Source: a virus
Direction: 5' to 3' (one strand)
Virus record (IMG/VR): IMGVR_UViG_3300029787_000281
Coordinates: 1-26,125 of that record
Length of the DNA: 26,125 bases
The translations under genes and the position numbers were made by a program. Positions 9,584 to 26,125 of this stretch are shown one piece after another. Numbering within the stretch: the first letter of the stretch is position 1; each line of letters opens with the position of its first letter. The notes under the pieces are model-generated. The model was not told where the DNA came from. It did no database searches and worked only from the letters and a program-made list of their open reading frames with translations.

Positions 9584-12500
9584 ATGCCTGAGATTAAGCA
9601 TGTTTTCAATCAAGGTAAAATGAACAAAGACCTTGACGAAAGACTAGTAGAAAATGGTCAATATAGAGACGCAATGAATATACAAGTGTCGACTTCAGAA
9701 GGTTCTGACGTTGGTGCTGTTCAGAATATATTAGGTAATTTAAATTTATTTGAAAATAGTAAGTTGGCGCCTAGCGCAAAATGTGTTGGCGCTATTGCTG
9801 ATGAAAAAAATAATTGTTTTTACTGGTTTGTTTATCATGATACAAAAAACTTAATACTAAAGTATGATAATAGTGTTAAGTTTGTTTTTGTAGATATACA
9901 TGGTATTTTAAAATTTACTGAAGAATTAATAACTGGTATAAATATAGTTGATGATTTTTTATTTTGGACAGATAACAATTCAGAACCTAAAAAAATAAAT
10001 ACTATTCTTTGCGAAGAAGGTACTGATCAATCGGGATTTTACCATACAAATTTAGTTGTACCAAAAAAATTTATTACAAAAAGCAATTGTATAAAAATAC
10101 AAGAAGAACATATAACTGTTATTAAAAAATCACCTAAAACTAAACTTGTATTAGATCCGGTTTTTGAAAAAAATATAAAATCTAAAACTGAGTTTAATTT
10201 TTCATCAATAAACGTCGGTGATATTGTACAAATTACTTTTTTTGATTTTCCTGTTTTTATTTCAGGTTATAAAATTAACGATATACTTACTATTACAAAT
10301 ACTAGCGGTGATCAAGCTGCTAGAGTTAAAGTAACAGAAGTAGTACTTGCTTCAAATGGTGATTATAAAGTTGAAATATTATCAATAGTACCTGAAAATA
10401 TAACAAGCGGTAAATTTTCATATGATGTTGAAAAAGAAGATGCAAGTGATTTGTTTAAAAGAAAGTTTATAAGGTTTGGTTATAGGTATAAGTATGAAGA
10501 TGGTGAGTATTCTAGCTTTTCACCTTTTACTGATGTTGTTTTTAAACCAGATCTTTTTGAATATTCAGCTAAAGACGCTTACAACAAAGCAATGGAAAAC
10601 AATTTAATTTCTTTAAAATTAAGAAATTTTGTTACTGCGGAAATGCCTGAAGACGTTGTACAAATTGATATTCTTTATAAAGAATCAAATTCACCTATAG
10701 TTTATATTGTTGATAAATTAAAATATCAAGATCCAACACAAGTAACAACTGGTGGTGTTGAGAAAAATTATATAAATGCTAATTTATATGAAATTACTTC
10801 AGATCTTATATTTACTGTTGTTAGTTCTAATCAATTATTAAGAGCTTGGGACAATGTGCCTAGAAAAGCAAAAGCACAAGAAATTACCGGCAATAGATTA
10901 GTTTATGGTAATTATGTTCAAAACTACGATGTGATTAAAAAACCTATTTTACAAGCTGGTTTTGTAGATAGATTTAATAATGACATAACTTTTATAAACA
11001 ACTATTTAGATAATCAAACTGAAATTATCACACCAGCACAACAAGTTGTCTTACCTTTGTACGGTCAAAAATCTTTAAAATCAATAAGAAACTATCAATT
11101 AGGAGTGACTTATTTAGATAAATATAACAGAGAAACTCCTATATTTACAAGCTCTGAATCTATATTTAAAATTCCTAAAAAATATGCTGACAATGAATTA
11201 AAAATTACTGGTCAAGTTAGAACTTTAGCGCCTGACTGGGCAGAGTCTTTTAAAGTATATATTAAAGAAACATCTACAGAGTATTATAATTTAGCCATGA
11301 GTAGAGTTTACAATGCTGAAGATGGTAATGTTTGGCTTGCTTTTCCTTCTGCTGAAAGAAATAAAGTAGATGAAGAAACTTTTTTAATATTAAAAAAATC
11401 TATAGGCAATAACAGTTTAGTTGAAGAAGAAGCTAAATATAAAGTGTTAGCAATAGAAAACGAAGCACCTGAATATATAACTGAAGAAACTATTTCAATA
11501 GCAGAAATAAGTTGTGGTGGTTCAACTAGTTCTACAAATGTTTTTGGTATATATAGCCCTGTTGTTAACTCAAGAGAATTTAGAATAGTAGAAGGTGCTT
11601 GGCAAAATACTACTGCAGAGCCTTTAAATGAAATTACAGAAGATTTAGTGTTTTATTTCAAAAACACGTTAACTAACGAGCACACAAAAACTTATGAAAT
11701 TAAATCTGTTTCTTTAGATAATTCATATTATAAAATAACTTTAGATAAAGTTTTTGAAACTCAAGACGCTGAATTAATTTATCCTAATTACCCAACAACA
11801 ACAAGCGGTGGTGTTTTAGATTTAGACACTAACTTGCAAATAATTATTTCTAAAAAACAAAGTATTACTGAAAGCTCTCAGTTTAAGGGTATGTTTTTTG
11901 TAAAAATTAATAGAGATGCTGTAGTTGAAGAAAATGTTTTAATTAATCAAAATTTTAATGATTACGAAATATTTAACAGCATGCCAACTCATTATTTTGC
12001 TGATAACTATGCAATGCCAGGTTTTACTGGCGGAAACACGTCAACAGTATTAAATTTGTCAATTACTAATTGGCCACAACTTCTTGATTATGGTGGAGAA
12101 TCAAACGCTTTATTCCCAGAAAATCACGAGTTTGCAAATCCTGGAGATCCTATGGGTGGGTTTTTTATTGACAAAGCTTGGCACGCTGGTATTCAACCAG
12201 GTGGAGGTACTAGTAATGCAAACATTAATTCTAGTTCTCACGTATGGGGAAGTGCTCGTAATTTAATACAAGCTTGGAGAGACGAAACTTTTGTTGCAAT
12301 AGGTAGTCCTTCTTCTCAACTTAATCCTAGCATGAACGTATTTCCAACTGCGTTGCAGTGGGAAAATTCTTTTTCTTCTGTTTTTGAAAAATTTAAATTT
12401 TACAATTTTGTTCATAATTGGTTTTCAAACACAAGAAAAGATCTTAACAATCAACCTGGGACAATTGTAAACGTAGGAGTGCCTAGTGTTGTTCAAAATG

Positions 12501-15112
12501 TAACGTGGTATAATCCTGACACTGGCCAACAAGACTCTCTTCCAGCAAGTATCGATTATGCTCGTAATCCAGCTTTTGGTAAAGGGATATATACAGGTCA
12601 AAACGGCGGTCATTTTGTAGAAGTTTCTTTTTCAGGTATTTCACCTGACACTAACATCGGATCATCTTTAGGTGGAACAAATGGCAATCAATTGCAATAC
12701 GGTAATTTTAATAACACTAGTGCTTTTGATATTAGAGTAAATCAAATTACTCAAGAAGAATACGCGCAAAACTACAGCACAACAAATGACAAGTTATTGT
12801 CTATAGCAAACAACATGGTTGTTGGTAAACGTTTTAAAATAAGATCTGATGATAATTTTGAAAATATTTATAAAATAATAGGTGTTGAAAGAATTAGAAG
12901 ATATAACAGCATACCTTTTTTACAAATTGTTAAAGCTTATTATCAATATAGAAATGATAATAATTATGAAACTACTTTTACACAACAGTGGGGTCAATTT
13001 GGTAAAAAATGGAATAGAAGATATACTTTTAGATTACAACTAGACCACAGCTTAGAAGATGTTCAAATAAATAACAAAAGCATAACACACGCAGATAATT
13101 CAGGTATAGAAAAAAGTGTTTCATTTCAGTTTTTAGAGCCAAAATATAACACTACAACAAAACAAAAAATATCTGAAAATCCAGCAATATGGGAAACAGA
13201 ACCTAAAGAAACTGCTGATTTAGACATTTATTATGAAGCTAGCGAAATAATACCTTTGAAATTAAACGAAAAAAACAATCAAAGTTTTATACCATTGGGT
13301 AGTGTTGTTACTTGTCCAGCTAGACCTAACACTATAAACGGTCTTGTTTATGTTGTTTCTTGGAATAGTAATAAAATAACTTTTAACGCACCGATAGATT
13401 TAGATGAGTATCTTCCAATTGGAGCAAGTTTAGTAAGATTATATTTTACAAGGCCAGATAACTCATACACAACTTTAGCTATAGATGTAGAAGCTACACT
13501 AGCGACTTCACCAACTGGACTTATGTCTGACAGTTCACTACCACCTAATACTTATATAGTAAAAACAAATGTTAGTAAAAATCCATTTGCACTTTCCTGG
13601 TACAACTGTTATTCTTTTAGTAATGGTGTAGAATCAAATAGAATACGTGATGATTTTAATCAACCAATTATAGATAAAGGAGTAAAAGTTAGTACTATTT
13701 TAGAAGAAAATTATGAAGAAGAAAGAAGAAGTAGTGGATTAATATATTCTGGTATATACAATACTAACAGTGGTATTAATAATTTAAATCAATTTATACA
13801 AGCAGAAACAATTACTAAAGATTTAAATCCAACATATGGTAGTATACAAAAGCTATTTAGTAGAAATACTGATTTAGTTACTTTTTGTGAAGATAGAGTT
13901 ATAAGAATACAAGCAAATAAAGATGCAATATTTAATGCTGATGGTAATCCTCAGTTAATAGCTTCTAATAGAGTTTTAGGACAAACAATGCCATTTGCTG
14001 GTGATTACGGTATAAGTAAAAATCCAGAAAGTTTTGCTGTAGATAATTATAGAGCTTATTTTACAGATAAACAAAGAAGTGCTGTGTTAAGGCTTTCTAT
14101 GGATGGTATAACGCCAATATCTGAGTATGGTATGTCTGATTATTTTAAAGATAATCTTAAGCTTAATGATAAACTAATAGGTAGTTTTGATATTAAAAAA
14201 GGCGAGTACAACTTAACAATGCCTAATATTGATAAAAGTGTTTCTTTTAAAGAGTCCGTTAATGGTTGGGCAAGTTTTAAGTCTTTTGTTTTAGAGCAAG
14301 GTGTTAGCATGTCTGGTAATTATTATACTTTTAAAAATGCTTTACCACATCAACACCACAGTGAAGAAGTTGATAGAAATACTTTTTATGGAAAATATGT
14401 TTCCTCTTCTATAAGTGTTTTATTAAACGATGTGCCTAGTGCAATAAAAATGTATAAAACATTAAATTACGAAGGATCACAATCTAATATTGATCAAAAC
14501 ATTACAGGTGTAGAAACTGGTTATTACAATTTAGAAAATAAAGATGGTTGGAAATCAAAAATAAAAACAGACAAACAGGTTGGTTCTGTTTCAGAATTTA
14601 TAGAAAAAGAAGGTAAATGGTTTAATTTTATTAAAGGTAATAATTTTAATAAAGTTGTTGATTTAAAAACTAAAGAGTTTTCTTTTCAAGGTGTAGGTAG
14701 ACCAACTGAATTTGAAATTGATATTAATAAATACAAACCAATTACAGGTTGTACTAATCCAAAAGCAACTAATTATAATCCCGAAGCTATAATTGATGAT
14801 GGAAGTTGTTTTTTAACGCCGCCTGAAACTGATATAGTTGTTGGTGGTTGTATGGATCCAAATTCTAGCAACTATAATCCTGACGCTACTTATGATGATG
14901 GTAGTTGTAACGTTTTATGTGACGCTATTCTTGGCTGTACAAATCCAAATGCTATTAACTTTGATCCTAATGCAACTCAAGATAATGGCTCTTGCATATT
15001 ACCAATATACGGTTGTACAAATCCAAATGCTAGTAATTACGATGCCTCTGCTAACGTTGATGATGGCACATGTTTATTTGAAGACATTGATGATCCAGTT
15101 GGTGGAGCGTAA
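9584..15112 (+). CDS. Giant tail nozzle protein (P22 gp10-like stabilisation protein) with C-terminal Cys repeats
   Basis: The protein has 1842 residues. The start HVFNQGKMNKDLDERLVENG and QYRDAMNIQVSTSEGSDVG matches what I recall of proteins named stabilisation protein in marine phages, similar to P22 gp10, which forms the nozzle below the adaptor ring. The segment at about bases 13720-14230 (LFSRNTDLVTFCEDRVIRIQ, AYFTDKQRSAVLRLSMDGI) has the beta-rich look of a propeller. Residues about 600-1300 are Asn/Ser/Gly-rich beta sequence, probably added domains, since P22 gp10 is only about 470 residues. The last 120 residues carry four Cys-pair repeats, listed separately, that could bind the host surface. 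No signal peptide is seen. It follows the adaptor gene by 3 bases. Nozzle identity is fairly sure; the host-binding idea is inference. Confidence 0.75.
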   Translation: MPEIKHVFNQGKMNKDLDERLVENGQYRDAMNIQVSTSEGSDVGAVQNILGNLNLFENSKLAPSAKCVGAIADEKNNCFYWFVYHDTKNLILKYDNSVKFVFVDIHGILKFTEELITGINIVDDFLFWTDNNSEPKKINTILCEEGTDQSGFYHTNLVVPKKFITKSNCIKIQEEHITVIKKSPKTKLVLDPVFEKNIKSKTEFNFSSINVGDIVQITFFDFPVFISGYKINDILTITNTSGDQAARVKVTEVVLASNGDYKVEILSIVPENITSGKFSYDVEKEDASDLFKRKFIRFGYRYKYEDGEYSSFSPFTDVVFKPDLFEYSAKDAYNKAMENNLISLKLRNFVTAEMPEDVVQIDILYKESNSPIVYIVDKLKYQDPTQVTTGGVEKNYINANLYEITSDLIFTVVSSNQLLRAWDNVPRKAKAQEITGNRLVYGNYVQNYDVIKKPILQAGFVDRFNNDITFINNYLDNQTEIITPAQQVVLPLYGQKSLKSIRNYQLGVTYLDKYNRETPIFTSSESIFKIPKKYADNELKITGQVRTLAPDWAESFKVYIKETSTEYYNLAMSRVYNAEDGNVWLAFPSAERNKVDEETFLILKKSIGNNSLVEEEAKYKVLAIENEAPEYITEETISIAEISCGGSTSSTNVFGIYSPVVNSREFRIVEGAWQNTTAEPLNEITEDLVFYFKNTLTNEHTKTYEIKSVSLDNSYYKITLDKVFETQDAELIYPNYPTTTSGGVLDLDTNLQIIISKKQSITESSQFKGMFFVKINRDAVVEENVLINQNFNDYEIFNSMPTHYFADNYAMPGFTGGNTSTVLNLSITNWPQLLDYGGESNALFPENHEFANPGDPMGGFFIDKAWHAGIQPGGGTSNANINSSSHVWGSARNLIQAWRDETFVAIGSPSSQLNPSMNVFPTALQWENSFSSVFEKFKFYNFVHNWFSNTRKDLNNQPGTIVNVGVPSVVQNVTWYNPDTGQQDSLPASIDYARNPAFGKGIYTGQNGGHFVEVSFSGISPDTNIGSSLGGTNGNQLQYGNFNNTSAFDIRVNQITQEEYAQNYSTTNDKLLSIANNMVVGKRFKIRSDDNFENIYKIIGVERIRRYNSIPFLQIVKAYYQYRNDNNYETTFTQQWGQFGKKWNRRYTFRLQLDHSLEDVQINNKSITHADNSGIEKSVSFQFLEPKYNTTTKQKISENPAIWETEPKETADLDIYYEASEIIPLKLNEKNNQSFIPLGSVVTCPARPNTINGLVYVVSWNSNKITFNAPIDLDEYLPIGASLVRLYFTRPDNSYTTLAIDVEATLATSPTGLMSDSSLPPNTYIVKTNVSKNPFALSWYNCYSFSNGVESNRIRDDFNQPIIDKGVKVSTILEENYEEERRSSGLIYSGIYNTNSGINNLNQFIQAETITKDLNPTYGSIQKLFSRNTDLVTFCEDRVIRIQANKDAIFNADGNPQLIASNRVLGQTMPFAGDYGISKNPESFAVDNYRAYFTDKQRSAVLRLSMDGITPISEYGMSDYFKDNLKLNDKLIGSFDIKKGEYNLTMPNIDKSVSFKESVNGWASFKSFVLEQGVSMSGNYYTFKNALPHQHHSEEVDRNTFYGKYVSSSISVLLNDVPSAIKMYKTLNYEGSQSNIDQNITGVETGYYNLENKDGWKSKIKTDKQVGSVSEFIEKEGKWFNFIKGNNFNKVVDLKTKEFSFQGVGRPTEFEIDINKYKPITGCTNPKATNYNPEAIIDDGSCFLTPPETDIVVGGCMDPNSSNYNPDATYDDGSCNVLCDAILGCTNPNAINFDPNATQDNGSCILPIYGCTNPNASNYDASANVDDGTCLFEDIDDPVGGA
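14747..15073 (+). repeat. Four Cys-pair repeats encoding the C-terminus of the tail protein
   Basis: Four 63-base units lie at 14747-14809, 14846-14908, 14933-14995 and 15011-15073, coding residues starting at 1722, 1755, 1784 and 1810. Each encodes 21 residues of pattern GC-x-[ND]-P-x(3)-[NI/SN]-[YF]-[ND]-x(2)-A-x(2)-D-[DN]-G-[ST]-C. Acidic residues and Asn sit at positions that resemble a calcium-binding loop, and the two Cys could form a disulfide. Repeats of this kind are frequent in secreted and surface proteins of Flavobacteriia. Linkers shorten from 36 to 24 to 15 bases. Confidence 0.9.
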
Positions 15113-15124
15113 TAAATATATAAT

Positions 15125-16396
15125 ATGAAATTAATAAATAATATAACAATAGATACTTCACCAATGCCTTCTGCTGTAACAACAAGAATTTTTACAGTTA
15201 CAGGAGATCCAGGCGCTGTTTTTACAATAACAGTTACAAATGAAGATGATCATTTTTATAATTTTTCAGAAGACACTGACGTTGCTTTAGCATTTTCTTC
15301 TAATGCTGCAAATTTAAAACAAAAAACTATTGATAGCACGGGTATTTATAGTGGTATTATAGAGTTTCCAGCTATAACAGATGATGATTACTATATTATT
15401 ACTTTATATGCAGATAGTGCTAGTGAAACAACTTTAAGTAAAGATCTTTCTAGTAATCAAGTATATATATTACCAAAAATACATAAGTATCATGATACTA
15501 CTGTTACTTTTGCCGTAGCTTCTGCTGGTAGTTCTGGAACTTATACGGCAAATCCACCCGCTAGCAACGTTACTTTTACAAGGCCTAGTTATTTAGTAAA
15601 AGAAAGTAGTAAACAAACAAAAACAATTAACTGGCCAGTAGCACTTAGTTCTAGTCAGTTTGTAATAGCTAGGCAACCAAAAGTTACAGATTTTGAATTT
15701 ACAACAACTAAAGTTTCAAAAACAGCTGGTTCTAGCACAACGTCTGTTGAGTTGACAGATATATCAAATCTTTCTGTTGGCATGGTAGTTTCTGGTACAG
15801 GTATAGCTTCTGACTCTGTTATTACTGAAATAATTGAAGGTTACTTAGATGATAACAAGTCTTATGATAATAACAACGTTTACGTTATACCGAAAGCTAT
15901 TAGTACTGATGTTAATGGTGTTCAAAGTATTGGTGATGATGTTGGTGGTACAATAATAATTGACAAGTCTTCTACTTTTAACGCAGGTATAACTGTTACT
16001 TTTACAGGAAAAGGATCAGTAAATTCTAATGATTTTAATAATACTAGTTTTTCTATTAAAAACTTTACTTTAACTATTGATCCTGTTGTTACAACTACAG
16101 ATTCTGCTGTTAGTAGCAGTACAACAATACCTATAACAAGTACAAATGGTATAAAAGCAGCTGAAACTGTTATAATGTCTGGCGTTGGTGTTATTGGAAC
16201 TCCGCATGTTGACGCTGTAAGTGCTGGTGTTAATATTACAGCAAGTGCTGCGCAAACAATAGAAAATGGTCAAACTGTTACTTTTACAGGTAGTAGTAGA
16301 TCTGCAACAATAAGTGCTGATATAACAGTGTTGCAACACGGCACAGATGATATGACATTAACTTTAGCTTTAGATAATATTTTAACAGTAGGATAA
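15125..16396 (+). CDS. Beta-rich structural protein with a duplicated domain, probably tail or surface appendage
   Basis: The protein has 423 residues with very high Thr, Ser, Val and Ile and few Arg or Trp, typical of exposed phage beta-sandwich or fibre proteins. Residues about 15-110 form one unit (FTVTGDPGAVFTITVTNEDD, DDYYIITLYADS). From about 195 to the end the protein contains two divergent copies of one domain. Copy one has SSTTSVELTDISNLSVGMVV followed by SGTGIASDSVITEI and ends ITVTFTG; copy two has SSSTTIPITSTNGIKAAETV followed by IMSGVGVIGTPHVDAV and ends QTVTFTG. The core VGMVVSGTGI is shared with the insert of the 8084 protein. Its start is 12 bases after the nozzle gene and its stop is 1 base before the next start. 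A role in the tail is inferred from position only. Confidence 0.55.
   Translation: MKLINNITIDTSPMPSAVTTRIFTVTGDPGAVFTITVTNEDDHFYNFSEDTDVALAFSSNAANLKQKTIDSTGIYSGIIEFPAITDDDYYIITLYADSASETTLSKDLSSNQVYILPKIHKYHDTTVTFAVASAGSSGTYTANPPASNVTFTRPSYLVKESSKQTKTINWPVALSSSQFVIARQPKVTDFEFTTTKVSKTAGSSTTSVELTDISNLSVGMVVSGTGIASDSVITEIIEGYLDDNKSYDNNNVYVIPKAISTDVNGVQSIGDDVGGTIIIDKSSTFNAGITVTFTGKGSVNSNDFNNTSFSIKNFTLTIDPVVTTTDSAVSSSTTIPITSTNGIKAAETVIMSGVGVIGTPHVDAVSAGVNITASAAQTIENGQTVTFTGSSRSATISADITVLQHGTDDMTLTLALDNILTVG
15992..16290 (+). repeat. Shared 17-base ends of the duplicated domain
   Basis: The identical 17-base string ACTGTTACTTTTACAGG occurs at 15992-16008 and 16274-16290, at the end of each domain copy in the 15125 gene. 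The copies are otherwise diverged in nucleotide sequence. This supports an old internal duplication and is not a recent slippage event. Confidence 0.6.
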
Positions 16397-16397
16397 T

Positions 16398-16760
16398 ATG
16401 CAAATAACATTAACATTTAGCGAGCAATTAAATAGTTCTTTACAAATAGGAGATACAATTTGGTATTTAAAAACTAATAGCACTGGTGGATATGATGCTG
16501 CAGAATCTTCGCTTGCAAAAAAGCTAGGTATTGTAGAAGAAATAATTAATACAATTGAAAACAATAAAATTATTATTAGTAATAATTTTAATACTCAAAC
16601 TCCCGATTTAAATAATATTTTTATTATGTTTTCTAAAGACAATAAAGCCAACACCTCTAGTTTAGTTGGTTACTACGCAGAAGTTTCTTTAGAAAATAAT
16701 TCAAAAGAAAAAGTTGAGCTATTTTCAGTTGGCTCTGAAATAGTACGAAGTAGTAAATAA
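16398..16760 (+). CDS. Small conserved phage structural-region protein, function unknown
   Basis: The protein has 120 residues, is probably all beta and globular, and has no Cys. Features are ITLTFSEQLNSSLQIGDTIW, then a variable middle, then FIMFSKDNKANTSSLVGYYA and EVSLENNSKEKVELFSVGSE. I recall closely similar sequences with the conserved FSKD, SSLLGYYAE and KAELFAVGSE stretches from many marine phages including myoviruses, without a named function. The opening QIGDTIWYL resembles a small barrel. It could be a tail or baseplate-like small component. It starts 1 base after the 15125 gene stop, so is very likely cotranslated. A gap of 49 A/T-rich bases follows, with no hairpin or clear promoter. 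Confidence 0.6.
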   Translation: MQITLTFSEQLNSSLQIGDTIWYLKTNSTGGYDAAESSLAKKLGIVEEIINTIENNKIIISNNFNTQTPDLNNIFIMFSKDNKANTSSLVGYYAEVSLENNSKEKVELFSVGSEIVRSSK

Positions 16761-18959: not shown

Positions 18960-18962
18960 TTG

Positions 18963-21900
18963 ATGGCTAGATATAGAGACGCTACAGGTATTTACAATAT
19001 AGACGAAAGAGATGTTGATCGTTTTGAACAACAATTTCCAAACGCTGTGCGTTTAGATAGCGATTATTTGTTAAGAAAACAAGAAGAAGAAATATCTGCT
19101 GGTGAATTTTTTACTGACTTAGCAACAAGCGTACCTCAAGCTCTTTTAAAAACAGCTGGTGGTGTTGTTAATTATTTAGAGGCTGGTGAAAGAACTTTAA
19201 GAGATTACATTTATAGAGATTTAGACGAAAAAGAAAAAGCTGAAAGAATTTCATATATAGAAGAAAATGGCTTTTCACTATTATCTAAAGGTAATGATAA
19301 TATTTTTTCTAATGCAGGCGCTTATTTTGATCAATTTGATATAAAAGCTGATAAGTCAATAACAGAAGAACTAGATCTTACAGACCCTTCAACTTGGGGT
19401 AGAGCTGGTGCTAGAGCTGTTGTGGCTGGTATAGAGTCTTGGCCATCTATAGCTGCTGCTTTTTTAGGCGCCCCCGCAATGATTGCACTAGGTGTTTCTT
19501 ACGCTGGAAATAAATTTGAAGAAGAGCTAGCTAAAGATCCAACAAAAGGTATGGGTGAGCTTTTGTTAAACGCTACTGGTACTGGGGCTATTGAAGCTGG
19601 TTTTGAAATGGCTACAAGAGGTTTGTTTAAATACGCTGGTATTGTTGGTAATCAAAGTGGTGCTGCAGCCGCAAAAGAAGTGTTAAAAGGTGGTTTTGTA
19701 GAAGTGTCAAAAAAATTAAGTGGTGGTTTTGTTTTTGAAGGTGCTTCAGAAGCTGCTACAGAACTCGCTAATAATGTTTGGGATAGTATGACTATAGAAG
19801 GTAGAGAAATGCCTACTATAGCTCAAATGAAATATCAACTTGGAGATGCGTTTTTAGTTGGTGGTTTAGTTGGTGGTACAATAACAGGTTTTGGGCAAAT
19901 AAACAATAAAAGCAAAGCAGTTGTTGACAGAGCTAATATAACTTTAATGCCACTTGAAGACAAAGGCCAAATACAAGAAAAAGCCGAGCAAATAAAAAAA
20001 TTATATATAGATAGATCAAGAGCTAAAAGAGTAAAGAATAACGAGAAAGTTTTGCGGAAAATAGACACGCAAATTACTTTTTTAAAATCAGATATTCAAA
20101 GAATACAAGACAAAAATCTTAACGCTTTACAAAACATGAGTAATGAAAAGCTAAAAGATTACGCTACAAATGTTACAGAAATAAATACTTTAGTACAAGA
20201 AATAAAAGATAATCCAGGCAACTCTACTGTAAAAAATTTAAATCAAGAAAACATACGTTTGCTTTCTGAACAAAACAAAAACTTGCGTAACGAAAGTTTA
20301 CAAAATATAGTTGGCAAACAACTTGACTCTGTTGAAACTTTAATTCAAAAAGCAGAAGAAAAAGGATTAAAAATAACAGTGCAAAAGGGTGATAATGAGG
20401 CAATGCAAAAGTTTGCTCAAGAAAGAGGTCAAGATGCGGATTTGAAAGGTAGTACTAAATATGGTGGTTTTATACCTGTTTTTGACAAAAAAGGTAATAT
20501 TACAAGTTTAGATCTTTTTATTAATGAAAAAAATTCTATTAAAAATGGCTTTTTAAATACCGCGGCTCATGAGTTTTTTCATGCGGCAATATTCTCTACT
20601 TTAAAGCAGAATATAAGTGCTCAATCATCTTTAGGCGATGCTTTAGTAAGAGCTTTAAAAGCTAAAGGTGCTACTATTAAAGAAAGCAGTGATCTTAACG
20701 AAAGAATAGCCTCTTACACACCAGAGCAAGGTCAAGGTGAAGAAGTTTTAGCTTTAATAATAGAAGCTTTAAAAAATAACGAAATAAATATTAACGAAGG
20801 CTTTGTTCAAGGCTTAAGAGATGCTTGGAGAAGATTTGGCCAGCAATATTTAGGCGTTGAAATAAGGTTTGATACTGATCAAGATGTTTTAAATTTTGTA
20901 AAAGATTATATTAAAACTATAGACAATCCTGCAAAGTTAAACGACGCTATGCTTGGTTTAATTACTAAGGGCGCTGAAGGTAAACTTTTAGAAGTTGCTA
21001 AAGGTGAAGACGCGGAAGTTCAAGCTTTTTCAAAAGAAGCTTCTGACAATGTACAGCAATTGTACGAAAATAGAGCTGATAACGCAAGTTTTGAGTTTGA
21101 TATTATAGAACAATTCAAACCTATTGTAGGTAAAATAGTTGATAAGCGTAAAGATGCTCCTAATTTTGACAGACAGTTATTAACTGATGAAATAGAAACT
21201 GGACAACGTGGTATATTAGATTTAATTAGAGAATATAAACCAGAATCTGACGTGCCATTAGCAGCATATATAAATAAATTTTTACCAGCAAGAGCTATTG
21301 AAGCATCAAGAAGAGTTTTAGGTGAAGAGTTTACAGAAGATGTAACAGAAGCTAGAGGTGTTATTGCTGAAGAAACCGCAGATGTAGAAGTTGAAACTAA
21401 AAGAGAGCAAAAAGAAACTGTAGTTGCTGATAGACTAGACGTTAGTGAACAAGCTGCAAAAACTATTGAAAAAGTAGCACCTGATTTAGACTTTGAAAAC
21501 TTAAATTATAAAACATTAAAAAATCAATTACCTGATATAGTAGGTGAGTTGTTTGGTATAAAACCAGAAAAACTAACAACACTAGCTAATTTAACTAAAA
21601 AAGAAATACAAGCAGCACAAATGTTTATTAATAAGAATGCAGATTTATTAATAGCGTTATTACCTGAAGGTGCTACAGCTAGTGGTACCGCTACAGGCGT
21701 GCCTAATACTTTATTAAAAGCTTTTTATACTAAAACTGATAGAGCTAAAGCAGCTACAACTGGTAGTAGAGCAGGTTTAGCAATACAACAAAAAAATGAT
21801 ATAGATAGGGAAATATTTTTAGAAACATTTGGTATTATTAACGGTAAGCCAGATCGTACTGATAGAAATATATCCGCTAGAATTTTAGCTATAGCAAATG

Positions 21901-24900
21901 TTACTGGTCAAGTTATAACAAACCAAACAGTTAGACAAAATCAAAAAGCTTTAGATATAACGCAAAAAGCTATTGATAGAATAAAAGATGGTAAGTCTAA
22001 AATAATGTTTAGTCAAGCTGGTATAAGAAAGCTTGCTGTAGAAGCTGGTTTGCCTATAGCACCAACAAATATAAAAACTAAAGATAGAAAATCTTTAAAA
22101 AACTTTTTAATAGATTTTTTTGGAGAACAAGGCATACCGCTACCTGGAAGATTACATAGGGCTACATATGCTAGAGGAAGTAAAAGCAAAGGTAACGACT
22201 TTGTTGTAAAAAACTACTATATGTCTGCAAACGAAGCAACTATATTAGCTAAAAAAATACAACAAAAACAATTAAGTCGTAAAAAACCTTTTACTAAAAA
22301 AGAACGAGCATTAATAGAAGAAGTTTTTAGATCTAAAATAGACGATTTTAATAAACTTGGTAATAACTTAGAATTATTAAAAAAAGGAGTTGTTTATTAT
22401 ATAAAAAATTGGGATAAATTTATTAATAGCAATAAATTTGGAAACAAAAGAAATTTACTTGAGTTTGAAAAGCTTTTACAATCTTCTTCTGTAGCAAAAA
22501 CACATGTAATGAGAATGATGGCTTCTGCGCTTGGAAAAACAAATGTTGATAAAATTGTTGAAAAAGAACACCCTTTTGTTCAAAACAAAGCGGGTGAATT
22601 TATATTTAGTGCTCTTGCTAGCGACAATGTTGATTTAGTTTTACCTTGGTTTATTGAAAACTATTATATGATAGGTTTAAGTCAATCTCAAAATGCTTTA
22701 TTAAATAAATATAAACAAAGCATGCCTGAGGTTTTTTATGAAAACTTACAAAAAGCAATAGAAGCTGGTGATATGTCTTTAGCTAGTGATCCGTTAATAA
22801 GGTATACAATTTCTAATATAAATTTATCTGAAATAAACTGGCATAGTGGTGGGAATTTATTACAACACATAGATAAAAAATATGGCTTTGATGGTAGCTT
22901 AAGTTATAGTAATGGTAACGCTACTACTGTAGAGCAAGTAAACGAAGTGTTAACAGAGTTTTTTGCTAAAAGAATAACACTACAACAAGCTAAAGATCAA
23001 GTTAGTGTAATATCAAATGTAAATTACACTAAAGACATTAAATCTACTGAGGTGTTAAACAAAGCCGTTAACAAAAATAGGATGGCAGCTTCTAAAGATC
23101 CTAGAGGTATTACTGTTTTAGATTTTGATGACACTTTAGCTACAACTGAATCTTTAGTTAGATACACTGGTCCTGATGGGGAAACCGGTACTTTAAATGC
23201 AGAGCAATTTGCTAATACATATCAAGATTTATTAAATCAAGGTTATAAATTTGATTTTTCAGAATTTAACAAAGTAGTAAAAGGTAAAATAGCGCCGTTG
23301 TTTCAAAAAGCTTTAAAGTTGCAAAAAAAGTTTGGTCCAGAAAACATGTTTGTATTAACTGCAAGGCCACCTCAAGCGGCTAAAGCTATATTTGATTTTT
23401 TAAAAGCTAATGGTTTAAATATACCTTTAAAAAACATAACTGGATTAGGTAATAGTACAGCAGAAGCAAAAGCCTTGTGGGTTGCCGGTAAAGTTGGTGA
23501 AGGTTATAATGATTTTTACTTTGCAGACGACGCATTACAAAACGTACAAGCTGTAGAAAATATGCTTGAGCAATTTGACGTTAAACGTAAAGTACAACAA
23601 GCTAGAATACAGTTTAGCAAACCAGCTGATTTAGACAGAATATTTAACAATATAATACAAGATGTAACTGGTATTGAATCTCAAAAACGTTTTGAAAGAA
23701 CTAAAGCTAGAAAGCGTGGGGCTAGTAAAGGAAGATTTAGATATTTTATACCACCATCACATGAAGATTTTGCCGGTTTACTTTATAATTTTATGGGTAA
23801 AGGCAAACAAGGCGACAAACATAGAGACTTTTTAGAACAAGCTTTAATAAGACCTTTGAATAGAGCTAATAGAGAATACGATACAGCTAGACAATCAATA
23901 GCAACCGATTATAAAAATTTAAAGAAAAAATTTCCAGATATTAGATCAAAGCTTAGAGAAAAAACTCCTGATGGTGATTTTGTTTATGAAGATGCTGTAA
24001 GAATATATTTGTGGGATAAACACGGTTATGATATACCAGGACTTAGCCCCGTTGATCAAAAAAACTTAGTTAATCTTGTTAAATCTGATGGAAAATTAAA
24101 AGCTTACGCAGACGCTGTAAACATTATATCAAAACAAGATAATTATGTAGATCCTACAGATGGTTGGGAATCTGGAGATATACGTATGGATTTAGATGAC
24201 GCGACTGGTAGAGTTGGTAGATCACAGTTTTTTGCAGAATTTATTGAAAATGCTGACATAGTATTTTCTACACAAAACTTAAATAAAATAGAAGCTGGTT
24301 ACGGCAAAGGCGTGCGAGAAGCTTTAGAAGACATGTTGTACAGAATTAAAACAGGTAGAAATAGACCTGTTGGTACAAACTCACAAGTAAATAGATTTAT
24401 GAATTGGTTAAACGGTGCTGTTGGATCTGTGATGTTTTTTAATATTAGATCAGCCGTGTTACAGCAAATGTCTTTAGTAAATTATATAAATTTTGCAGAT
24501 AATAATATATTTGCTGCGGCCAAAGCTTTTTCTAATCAAAAACAATATTGGACTGACTGGGCTTTTATATTTAACTCTGATATGCTAAAACAAAGAAGAG
24601 GTGGTATACAGACTGATGTTAATGGTGCTGAGCTTGCAGAAAATATTAGTAAATCAAAATATCCCGCTAGAGCATTAATAAGACAGTTGTTGCAAATAGG
24701 TTTTTTACCTACACAAATTGGTGATAATATTGCTATTGCAACTGGTGGTGCTACGTATTATAGAAATAGAATAAATAAATATTTAAAAGACGGTTTAAGT
24801 CAAAAAGAAGCTGAAGCAAAAGCTTTTACTGATTTTCAAAATATAACACAGTCAACACAACAGTCTGCTAGACCTGATATGATTTCACAGCAACAAGCAT

Positions 24901-25709
24901 CTGTATTAGGTAGACTAGTTCTTGCTTTTCAAAATGTAACGTCTCAATTTAATAGGCTTGGTAAAAAAGCTGCTCAAGATATATACAATAGAAGAACAAC
25001 ACCTCCTAATTCAACTTTATTACAAAGTGATGTTTCTAATACAGCTAGAATAGCTTATTATTTTGGTATACAAAATTTAATATTTTATAGCTTGCAAACA
25101 GCTTTATTTGCCGCCATGTTTGATGAAGATGAAGATCAAGAGTTTTTAACTACTAAAGGACAAAGATCTTTAAACGGCGCGTTAGATAGTATACTTAGAG
25201 GTATAGGTGTTGGAGGTGCTGTAGTGTCTACATTAAAAAACATGGGTATAAAGTTTTTAAATGAAAGAGAAAAAGGTTATAATTTTGACGAATCAGCAGT
25301 TATAGGTGAATTAACTAATTTTTCTCCACCAATTGGTATTAAAATTAGAAAAGTTGTTAACGCTGAGAAAACTCTTAATTGGAACAAGAGCTTAATAGAA
25401 GACATGAGCAAAGGTAACTTTGACAATCCACAGTGGTCTGCTGTTACAAATTATGTTGAAGGTTTAACTAATATTCCTTTAAATAGACTTTACAACAAAA
25501 CTAATAACGTTAGGCAATCTTTAAATAATAATCACGAAGCTTGGCAAAGATTTTTAATGTTTTTTGGTTGGAGTCAGTATAATTTAGATATAAAAAACGA
25601 AGAAGTAGAAAAAGCTAAAGAAGAATTAAAAATTAAAAAACAAAGCAAAAAAAGAGGTTCTAAAGGTTCAAAAAGAAAAATAACAAAAAGAAAAATAACA
25701 AAAAGATAA
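18963..25709 (+). CDS. Giant polyvalent virion protein with zincin-like and HAD phosphatase-like domains
   Basis: The protein has 2248 residues from the ATG at 18963. A TTG directly before it is a less likely start. Order: conserved-looking start (GIYNIDERDVDRFEQQFPNA); Gly/Ala-rich amphipathic helices at about 150-310 with GASEAATE, as in ejected proteins; HEFFH at residues 536-540, an HExxH zincin motif with E593/E594 downstream as a possible third zinc ligand; charged helical regions; HAD-like domain at about 1380-1540 with LDFDDTL (Asp1387, Asp1389), Thr1466 in VLTAR, Lys1503 and FADD (Asp1522, Asp1523), so all four HAD motifs are present; helical region with IPPSHEDFAGLLYNFMGKGK; hydrophobic-helical region about 1810-2010 like phage polyvalent-protein-associated domains; Lys/Arg tail. 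It probably enters the host with the DNA and acts there. The substrates are unknown. The architecture fits polyvalent proteins described in phages. Confidence 0.8.
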   Translation: MARYRDATGIYNIDERDVDRFEQQFPNAVRLDSDYLLRKQEEEISAGEFFTDLATSVPQALLKTAGGVVNYLEAGERTLRDYIYRDLDEKEKAERISYIEENGFSLLSKGNDNIFSNAGAYFDQFDIKADKSITEELDLTDPSTWGRAGARAVVAGIESWPSIAAAFLGAPAMIALGVSYAGNKFEEELAKDPTKGMGELLLNATGTGAIEAGFEMATRGLFKYAGIVGNQSGAAAAKEVLKGGFVEVSKKLSGGFVFEGASEAATELANNVWDSMTIEGREMPTIAQMKYQLGDAFLVGGLVGGTITGFGQINNKSKAVVDRANITLMPLEDKGQIQEKAEQIKKLYIDRSRAKRVKNNEKVLRKIDTQITFLKSDIQRIQDKNLNALQNMSNEKLKDYATNVTEINTLVQEIKDNPGNSTVKNLNQENIRLLSEQNKNLRNESLQNIVGKQLDSVETLIQKAEEKGLKITVQKGDNEAMQKFAQERGQDADLKGSTKYGGFIPVFDKKGNITSLDLFINEKNSIKNGFLNTAAHEFFHAAIFSTLKQNISAQSSLGDALVRALKAKGATIKESSDLNERIASYTPEQGQGEEVLALIIEALKNNEININEGFVQGLRDAWRRFGQQYLGVEIRFDTDQDVLNFVKDYIKTIDNPAKLNDAMLGLITKGAEGKLLEVAKGEDAEVQAFSKEASDNVQQLYENRADNASFEFDIIEQFKPIVGKIVDKRKDAPNFDRQLLTDEIETGQRGILDLIREYKPESDVPLAAYINKFLPARAIEASRRVLGEEFTEDVTEARGVIAEETADVEVETKREQKETVVADRLDVSEQAAKTIEKVAPDLDFENLNYKTLKNQLPDIVGELFGIKPEKLTTLANLTKKEIQAAQMFINKNADLLIALLPEGATASGTATGVPNTLLKAFYTKTDRAKAATTGSRAGLAIQQKNDIDREIFLETFGIINGKPDRTDRNISARILAIANVTGQVITNQTVRQNQKALDITQKAIDRIKDGKSKIMFSQAGIRKLAVEAGLPIAPTNIKTKDRKSLKNFLIDFFGEQGIPLPGRLHRATYARGSKSKGNDFVVKNYYMSANEATILAKKIQQKQLSRKKPFTKKERALIEEVFRSKIDDFNKLGNNLELLKKGVVYYIKNWDKFINSNKFGNKRNLLEFEKLLQSSSVAKTHVMRMMASALGKTNVDKIVEKEHPFVQNKAGEFIFSALASDNVDLVLPWFIENYYMIGLSQSQNALLNKYKQSMPEVFYENLQKAIEAGDMSLASDPLIRYTISNINLSEINWHSGGNLLQHIDKKYGFDGSLSYSNGNATTVEQVNEVLTEFFAKRITLQQAKDQVSVISNVNYTKDIKSTEVLNKAVNKNRMAASKDPRGITVLDFDDTLATTESLVRYTGPDGETGTLNAEQFANTYQDLLNQGYKFDFSEFNKVVKGKIAPLFQKALKLQKKFGPENMFVLTARPPQAAKAIFDFLKANGLNIPLKNITGLGNSTAEAKALWVAGKVGEGYNDFYFADDALQNVQAVENMLEQFDVKRKVQQARIQFSKPADLDRIFNNIIQDVTGIESQKRFERTKARKRGASKGRFRYFIPPSHEDFAGLLYNFMGKGKQGDKHRDFLEQALIRPLNRANREYDTARQSIATDYKNLKKKFPDIRSKLREKTPDGDFVYEDAVRIYLWDKHGYDIPGLSPVDQKNLVNLVKSDGKLKAYADAVNIISKQDNYVDPTDGWESGDIRMDLDDATGRVGRSQFFAEFIENADIVFSTQNLNKIEAGYGKGVREALEDMLYRIKTGRNRPVGTNSQVNRFMNWLNGAVGSVMFFNIRSAVLQQMSLVNYINFADNNIFAAAKAFSNQKQYWTDWAFIFNSDMLKQRRGGIQTDVNGAELAENISKSKYPARALIRQLLQIGFLPTQIGDNIAIATGGATYYRNRINKYLKDGLSQKEAEAKAFTDFQNITQSTQQSARPDMISQQQASVLGRLVLAFQNVTSQFNRLGKKAAQDIYNRRTTPPNSTLLQSDVSNTARIAYYFGIQNLIFYSLQTALFAAMFDEDEDQEFLTTKGQRSLNGALDSILRGIGVGGAVVSTLKNMGIKFLNEREKGYNFDESAVIGELTNFSPPIGIKIRKVVNAEKTLNWNKSLIEDMSKGNFDNPQWSAVTNYVEGLTNIPLNRLYNKTNNVRQSLNNNHEAWQRFLMFFGWSQYNLDIKNEEVEKAKEELKIKKQSKKRGSKGSKRKITKRKITKR
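25671..25709 (+). repeat. 15-base tandem repeat encoding a basic tail
   Basis: Two identical 15-base units (AAAAGAAAAATAACA) at 25671-25685 and 25686-25700, plus a partial third to the stop, encode KRKIT KRKIT KR. With the preceding KKRGSKGSKRK they make a strongly basic C-terminus likely to bind DNA or packaged genome. The repeat is prone to slippage, so copy number may vary between related phages. Confidence 0.8.
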
Positions 25710-26125
25710 ATGAAAAAACTTCTGACACTTCTTTTATTAGTTTCATGCGTAAAAGAAGTTGATGATCTTGGCTTTAGAGTTTATACAATACCAGCTGGTG
25801 AACATAGCTCAGGTAGTTTTTTAAATCACCCAGATAATTCAAGAATAAATTTTAAGTTTATTTTAGATGAGTCAGCTATATACACTAGTGAAATACCAGA
25901 AAACCAACATGATGTAAATAAAATATACGGCATGAGCGACTTTGGCGTAAGACATCAAAAATATTCTATACGTTTAGGTTGGAGGTACATAAATAACGAA
26001 CTAGAGCTTTGTTGGTTAAGACACGAAGAAGGTAGACATAGCTCTGCTACAATAAGAAATATAGAGCCAGATGTAATTTATAACGCTACTATTGATATAA
26101 AAACGTTTTATTATGTAATAGTAAT
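25710..26125 (+). CDS. Small lipoprotein of unknown function (cut by the window end)
   Basis: The ATG at 25710 abuts the stop of the giant gene (TAAATG). 138 codons are in the window and the frame is open at the end. The start MKKLLTLLLLVSC is a lipoprotein signal with Cys13 in a lipobox (L-V-S-C), so the mature protein would be lipid-anchored in the host envelope. The rest is beta-rich: FRVYTIPAGEHSSG, INFKFILDE, DVNKIYGMSDFG, YSIRLGWRYINNELELCW. I recall uncharacterised small proteins from Bacteroidota with the same pattern (IPAGEH, DxNKLYGFSD, ARFGWR). No function is known to me. In phages, host-directed lipoproteins sometimes block superinfection or act at lysis. Both are only guesses here. 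The gene is not in the virion-protein style of its neighbours and may be transcribed on with them. Confidence 0.75.
   Translation, partial: MKKLLTLLLLVSCVKEVDDLGFRVYTIPAGEHSSGSFLNHPDNSRINFKFILDESAIYTSEIPENQHDVNKIYGMSDFGVRHQKYSIRLGWRYINNELELCWLRHEEGRHSSATIRNIEPDVIYNATIDIKTFYYVIV

Follow-up and report, generated by a model that had tools for sequence, protein, structure and literature searches.

Tandem 21-residue cysteine units as a probable exchangeable extension of a crAss-like phage muzzle protein

Why should a phage tail nozzle protein finish in a short string of cysteine-bounded repeats, and on which side of the virion would they emerge? The question is raised by the 26,125-base viral record IMGVR_UViG_3300029787_000281 of IMG/VR, analysed here over its whole length (the window). 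Its 1842-residue muzzle (tail nozzle) protein (9584..15112, + strand, as are all the muzzle features and the two neighbouring genes located below) has a C-terminus built of four 21-residue units of the pattern GC-x17-[ST]C (14747-15073). The phage, an uncultured crAss-like virus, is probably marine. Judging from sequence comparison and modelling, we slightly favour a reading in which this extension is an exchangeable stalk of beads or a low-affinity adhesin, brought into contact with host surface material and re-tooled by recombination.

Four units behind a conserved muzzle core

The translation of the open reading frame (ORF) gives unit 1 as GCTNPKATNYNPEAIIDDGSC (14747..14809, residues 1722-1742), unit 2 as GCMDPNSSNYNPDATYDDGSC (14846..14908, residues 1755-1775), unit 3 as GCTNPNAINFDPNATQDNGSC (14933..14995, residues 1784-1804) and unit 4 as GCTNPNASNYDASANVDDGTC (15011..15073, residues 1810-1830). 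They are separated by linkers of 12, 8 and 5 residues, that is, the 36, 24 and 15 bases that an earlier, sequence-only reading of this DNA had reported. The same reading had described the motif as GC-x-[ND]-P ... DDGSC; its start is present in all four units, and its end holds for units 1 and 2, the other two closing in DNGSC (unit 3) and DDGTC (unit 4). Chance does not readily produce such an array: when the 132 residues of this tail were shuffled 200,000 times, a GC-x17-[ST]C turned up in 1,025 shuffles, always singly, against the four observed. The protein has 17 cysteines, nine of them in the tail and eight of these within units; the ninth, Cys1779 (14918..14920), lies unpaired in the second linker, ahead of unit 3. 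The chain closes with an acidic end, LFEDIDDPVGGA (15074..15109), and relatives often finish in LT[IV]QDxNDDD. The loci L004, L005, L008, L009, L014, L015, L071 and L078-L080 have differing tails and a similar end (LT[IV]QDxNDDD, LTVQDDPNDH or a related acidic end), and such a common peptide closing different muzzle tails is a possible C-terminal signal.

The assignment to the tail nozzle, also made from the letters alone, is borne out on three counts: the Pfam domain PF25729 (crAss_MUZ_C) scores 29.2 bits against a cut-off of 27, PHROG 14478 (virion structural protein; phrog_14478) matches the ORF with E 7e-136, and the modelled propeller blades match those of the phicrAss001 muzzle. By tblastn, 87 named records carry relatives, including structural proteins of Cellulophaga and Flavobacterium phages, at identities below 60% throughout (by organism, Flavobacterium 68, Cellulophaga 15, Tenacibaculum 2, Maribacter 1 and unnamed 1). 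The window muzzle appears to be a distant branch, since the full-length muzzle model PF25731 matches phicrAss001 but not the window protein (searched to E 1), phi38:1 or elemoF (both searched to E 0.01). Sequence searches of the PDB with the muzzle core returned no relative, and the kinship is visible by fold alone. In a model of residues 1330-1842 (513 residues; mean predicted local distance difference test (pLDDT) 56.9, poor outside the blades and units), the last beta-propeller blades (residues 1488-1603, 14045..14392) align with residues 1132-1251 of the phicrAss001 muzzle, 7qok_A (Z 12.3, 2.0 Å over 105 residues), which Foldseek also matches to the model at E 6e-7.

This correspondence allows the extension to be placed on the tail. 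The crAss_MUZ_C domain lies directly C-terminal of the propeller in both proteins, at residues 1597-1685 (14372..14638) of the window protein and at 1244-1333 of the 1371 residues of phicrAss001 gp44, and is followed in the window by a conserved strand, FSFQGVG (residues 1699-1705, 14678..14698), and then by the units. In the phicrAss001 muzzle, the distal part is formed by the crass domain, inserted far upstream in the sequence, and the ring-joining domain and propeller resemble the T7 nozzle (PMC10172136), whose C-terminal domain is described as a platform touching the adaptor (PMC6702177). Because the beads follow the propeller and crAss_MUZ_C, which by homology to phicrAss001 and T7 belong to the ring-joining side, the bead-bearing C-terminus most likely leaves at the barrel side of the tail rather than at its distal tip. 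The earlier placing of the units at the tip, or free end, thus holds for the sequence and probably not for the virion.

Distribution and exchange among muzzle relatives

Relatives were sampled as the best 80 of 315 IMG/VR muzzle loci, in which unit-bearing loci are over-represented because the ranking query contained the units. The C-end is reached in 77 of the 80 (78 counting the window); three truncated loci that stop short of it (L003, L020 and L061) were left out before tail counts, as was L001, which is the window. L003 is the nearest relative. The 78 C-ends contain 311 units, every one of them C-terminal to the conserved core, which itself has none; their consensus is GCTDPxAxNYDPxAxxDDGSC, and the tails measure 3 to 1296 residues. 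Units number 1-14 in 54 of the 68 complete muzzles and are absent from the other 14; the ten tails that run off their contigs, counted separately for presence and for cysteine parity, each have 1-5. A second sample, obtained with a unit-free query, gave 18 loci, 17 of them with a complete muzzle. None of these 17, which belong to another clade, bears a unit, and eight finish in a phi38:1-type terminal domain (a likeness read by eye). By organism, the 14 phage records that match the unit (Synechococcus phage 12, Marine virus 1, uncultured phage 1) show no overlap with the 87 that bear a muzzle. Not universal in this tail protein family, the units are, as judged from these comparisons, a clade-specific, swappable C-terminal extension of the muzzle.

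Other modules occupy the same position: a Pfam search of the tails found fn3 in 9 of 72 and Lcl_C in 1 of 72. The muzzle tails of L007 (12703-15000) and L029 (17141-18688) finish in Lcl_C or C-type-lectin-like sequence, the former with E 1.5e-5 but below the cut-off, the latter by eye. C-type-lectin-like ends also occur in the variable proteins of diversity-generating retroelements.

On a tree of 77 cores (L070 omitted), unit presence changes at least nine times by gain or loss. The sister locus L002, 77% identical in the core and 74% in the next protein, has a tail unrelated to beads. This tail is homologous to the sequence immediately C-terminal of the one unit in a protein encoded separately downstream in L005 (E 5e-15) and L009 (E 2e-11), so the same module is part of the muzzle in one phage and of another gene product elsewhere, with a unit at the seam. 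Between L011 and L022, whose cores are 96% identical, a clean 204-base insertion or deletion amounts to two units. In L047 and L069 the synonymous divergence (dS) is 0.00 for the core and 0.10 for the tail, the pattern expected from recombination. The muzzles of L031, L032 and L066 end in KWFNYIKGKKL, and the next ORF begins in an ATGA overlap; in L031 and L066 this ORF starts with the last conserved muzzle strand (AFNIQGVG, the counterpart of FSFQGVG) and continues for about 1080 residues, among them 37 cysteines and two strict units, and in L032 the start alone is covered. A programmed frameshift was considered because this ORF overlaps the muzzle stop, and was set aside, as an overlap with its own ATG is more simply a plain gene split.

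The units themselves are constrained. In two bead-only pairs, the ratio of nonsynonymous to synonymous divergence (dN/dS) of the units is 0.05 (L011/L022) and 0.17 (L004/L008), indicating purifying selection. The linkers of the window (12, 8, 5) recur unchanged in L005, at a core identity of 56%, and begin 12, 9, 5 in L004, L008 and L015, which argues that they were inherited. The sequence-only reading had taken the uneven linkers as a sign of ongoing gain or loss of units: such turnover does occur among relatives, as L011 and L022 illustrate, but the linkers do not report it. These observations also bear on whether the window tail is a functionless remnant of a longer adhesin. It is short, and it has no counterpart of the downstream unit protein present in L005 and L004; against this stand the consensus kept in all four units, the linker lengths shared with L005 and a dN/dS below 0.2 in related bead-only tails, and we regard decay as very improbable.

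The unit, its cysteines and its occurrence elsewhere

The model of the bead array has a mean pLDDT of 86.8 and a predicted template modelling score of 0.41, pointing to units that are firm and an arrangement that is loose. Tails are rich in cysteine (1,911 of 34,773 residues, 5.5%) relative to cores (740 of 148,966, 0.5%). Of the 57 complete tails with any cysteine, 52 contain an even number (binomial p 3e-11), against 40 of 78 cores (p 0.91), the rows being related and not independent; non-unit tail cysteines are likewise even in 44 of 49 tails. Because the tail count is nearly always even, paired disulfides are supported, and each unit is probably closed by one between its two cysteines.

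The same parity suits a purely structural role, in which the beads would stabilise the virion by locking muzzle subunits, tail fibres or the 423- and 120-residue proteins encoded next to the muzzle, with no host contact. The tail barrel and fibre hubs of phicrAss001 are disulfide-stabilised (PMC10172136), the ninth cysteine of the window tail could link to another chain, and the two neighbouring genes accompany the muzzle in most relatives examined. The wholesale replacement of the tail in L002 and a range of 0-14 units are ill-suited to a structural part, however, and the other clade and the named phages manage without units. We give this alternative a modest share of the likelihood, below that of an exchangeable stalk or adhesin.

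No curated family describes the unit. Wherever a cut-off for the tail was shown, no Pfam model exceeded it: Fn1_2 reached 20.2 against 27 in the window tail and PsaN 19.9 against 21 in L004. PsaN also appears in 9 of 10 members of the unit-array profile (A1), at best E 8e-9 (cut-off not shown), the window not being matched. Across Pfam, NCBIfam and PDB sequence searches, PsaN, Fn1_2 and DUF4468 were rejected as the known family, their weak or sub-threshold hits being read as spurious matches to cysteines or DDG. A classical EGF module is not indicated either, with no Pfam EGF match in the tail and two cysteines per unit, not six. Calcium-dependent stability, suggested in the sequence-only reading, would have the acidic DDG/DNG turns bind calcium as thrombospondin type 3 repeats do; positions 17-18 are indeed conserved and Asp/Asn-rich in the 311 units. 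The idea finds no support in the window tail, which has no Pfam match to thrombospondin type 3 or EF-hand families, and a term search of the perforin-2 structure paper (PMC6989145) finds "calcium" 0 times. We consider it quite unlikely.

Perforin-2 enters here since the unit profile, searched against the PDB, found it alone (E 0.004), and it carries a GC-x17-SC signature at the same fixed spacing. Among PDB structures, three perforin-2 chains are the only matches to the modelled units at E up to 10, with a root-mean-square deviation of 0.6-0.7 Å over 24 columns and 46% identity at a non-significant E of 3.9-7.5; with VIA-align, no Z value reached 2. Predicted viral structures gave 23 matches to the bead model, 13 with E up to 0.001, some of these from Virus NIOZ-UU157. 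Four proteins of that virus match the model in all, one bearing the name of the muzzle C-terminal domain; UniProt already holds a NIOZ-UU157 entry joining that domain to a structural match of the unit model. Two giant-virus MACPF proteins are among the weaker matches (E 0.04 and 5.8). A maize chloroplast phosphopeptide tabulated in PMC4650667 also bears the signature.

The broadest occurrence is bacterial. With A1 at E up to 1e-10, arrays are found in all 61 genomes of one Flavobacteriales family, in 97 of 199 genomes of the order, in 4 of 247 taken from across the phylum and in 3 of 149 Flavobacteriaceae genomes. The end of the unit protein is present at 61 of 80 genome loci and matches Por_Secre_tail in 29 and CHU_C in 9; neither sorting domain was found in the window protein by Pfam search. 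The arrays are greatly expanded in one genome of that family (G003, locus L082), where 177 matches at E 1e-6 fall under no curated family name. Among cyanophages, one canonical unit each occurs in proteins of the Synechococcus phages S-CAM1 and S-CAM4 and two in the Kyanoviridae record AG-345-P14; the S-CAM3 protein has none by the strict pattern. The viral collection holds 91 unit ORFs in 80 loci, 15 of them muzzles and 76 other proteins. Type IX sorting domains were present in 7 of 10 non-muzzle proteins scanned, which look like host DNA in viral contigs, and we therefore did not use the non-muzzle set as phage evidence. The host-like character proposed from the letters alone accordingly stands for secreted Flavobacteriales proteins, while "flavobacterial" is at once too wide, as 3 of 149 Flavobacteriaceae genomes have arrays, and too narrow, as Kyanoviridae cyanophages, perforin-2 and a maize chloroplast protein have the unit. 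On these comparisons, the unit, for which the libraries searched hold no curated family, links phage tails, secreted proteins of uncultured Flavobacteriales and an immune pore-former.

Such a distribution invites the thought of mimicry, in which the phage would share the bead of the secreted proteins that coat its host and bind to that coat, bead to bead, or to the same partner. The family with arrays in every genome, often beside type IX sorting domains, and the absence of units from phages of the array-poor Flavobacteriaceae agree with it. Muzzle contigs inside genomes are few (1 of 114 in the unit-rich family, 0 of 299 in Flavobacteriaceae, 1 of 399 in the order, the same genome), and the one in the unit-rich family (L253, 1-3951), split over two ORFs, has no units, which speaks against a simple phage-host unit match. 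The unit also occurs in cyanophages. We hold mimicry to be unlikely. Equally doubtful, in our estimation, is a wider scheme in which the unit is an undescribed disulfide mini-module used across life, this phage lineage employs the very bead of its host family's type IX secreted coat to dock on that coat, bead to bead or through a shared partner, from a recombination port beside the tail barrel, and the beads double as seams for swapping receptor-binding modules between the muzzle and the next gene.

Based on these data, we return to the exchangeable stalk or adhesin. The muzzle C-terminus acts as a port for a clade-specific, exchangeable extension, which in the window phage consists of four 21-residue beads alone, each probably closed by a disulfide, with short linkers between them. 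By homology with the hexameric phicrAss001 muzzle, each virion would carry six bead tails, one per subunit, projecting, presumably outward, from the side of the tail at the muzzle-barrel joint. In relatives the port bears more beads, beads with FN3, C-type-lectin-like Lcl_C or other modules, or no beads. The phage would re-tool its stalk or adhesin, which most likely contacts host surface material, by recombination. Host contact, or a stalk for it, is our best guess because of the exchange, the constraint and the adhesion-type modules that relatives have at the same port. Several points weigh against it. The window tail consists of beads without a recognisable receptor-binding domain, and bead stalks may simply space or stabilise; with nine cysteines it is one of the five odd exceptions to parity; the muzzle contig from the unit-rich family is bead-free; the barrel-side placing comes from homology, not coordinates; and the structural likeness to perforin-2 is below significance by both comparisons. 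If the proposal is true, a muzzle that has been regarded in crAss-like phages as a conserved gate also bears a replaceable attachment. Host range could then depend on the joint between barrel and muzzle in addition to the tail fibres, and the unit would help to predict which marine phages pair with which hosts.

Gene neighbourhood and known systems

Upstream of the muzzle ORF, matches to terminase, portal and virion structural PHROGs mark a head and tail gene neighbourhood. Downstream, a 423-residue protein (15125..16396) and a 120-residue protein (16398..16760) follow the muzzle, as they do in most relatives examined. The former, conserved beside the extension and up to 74% identical (in L002), is beta-rich, cysteine-free and without a Pfam match, and may be a tail adhesin. 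The latter is homologous by blastp to the fused C-terminal domain of the L074 and L077 muzzles, and phrog_18548 matches the window muzzle and the 120-residue ORF alike. The fused end of L074 in turn matches the muzzle ends of phi38:1 (E 4e-6) and elemoF (E 1e-10); compared directly with phi38:1, the window ORF missed the E 1e-3 threshold. From this chain of homology, the extension seems to occupy the place once followed by a fused terminal domain, and the separate 120-residue gene looks like a gene fission across most relatives. Farther downstream, a 2249-residue protein (18960-25709) with HEFFH and LDFDDTL motifs, noted by eye, had no Pfam match when scanned in three pieces and may be an ejected cargo protein, and a protein cut by the record end (25710-26123) has a lipoprotein-like start, LLLLVSC, also by eye.

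Literature searches found no description of the unit in a muzzle, and the comparison with known systems is one of partial likenesses. The phicrAss001 muzzle gp44 (7QOK/7QOL) shares the propeller blades and the C-terminal PF25729 (PMC10172136) but stops 38 residues past that domain, with no unit, where the window protein adds its extension. The type IX secreted Flavobacteriales proteins share tandem units of the same consensus, as matched by A1; they differ from the phage protein in their length and in the Por_Secre_tail or CHU_C domain at the end of many of them. The small EGF-like linker module of perforin-2/MPEG1 has the same signature and spacing (PMC6989145, PMC7593815), in one copy inside an animal pore-former as opposed to tandem phage copies, with a fold match of non-significant E. 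Of the published precedents found, the nearest is the BACON repeat in tail-associated proteins of crAssphage (PMC6949934), likewise a tandem repeat common to Bacteroidota proteins and present in a crAss-like tail-region protein, which varies through duplication and transfer and has been proposed to aid host binding. It differs in having an Ig-like fold, a larger unit and a place in another gene, whereas the window phage carries 21-residue, probably disulfide-closed beads at the C-terminus of its muzzle.

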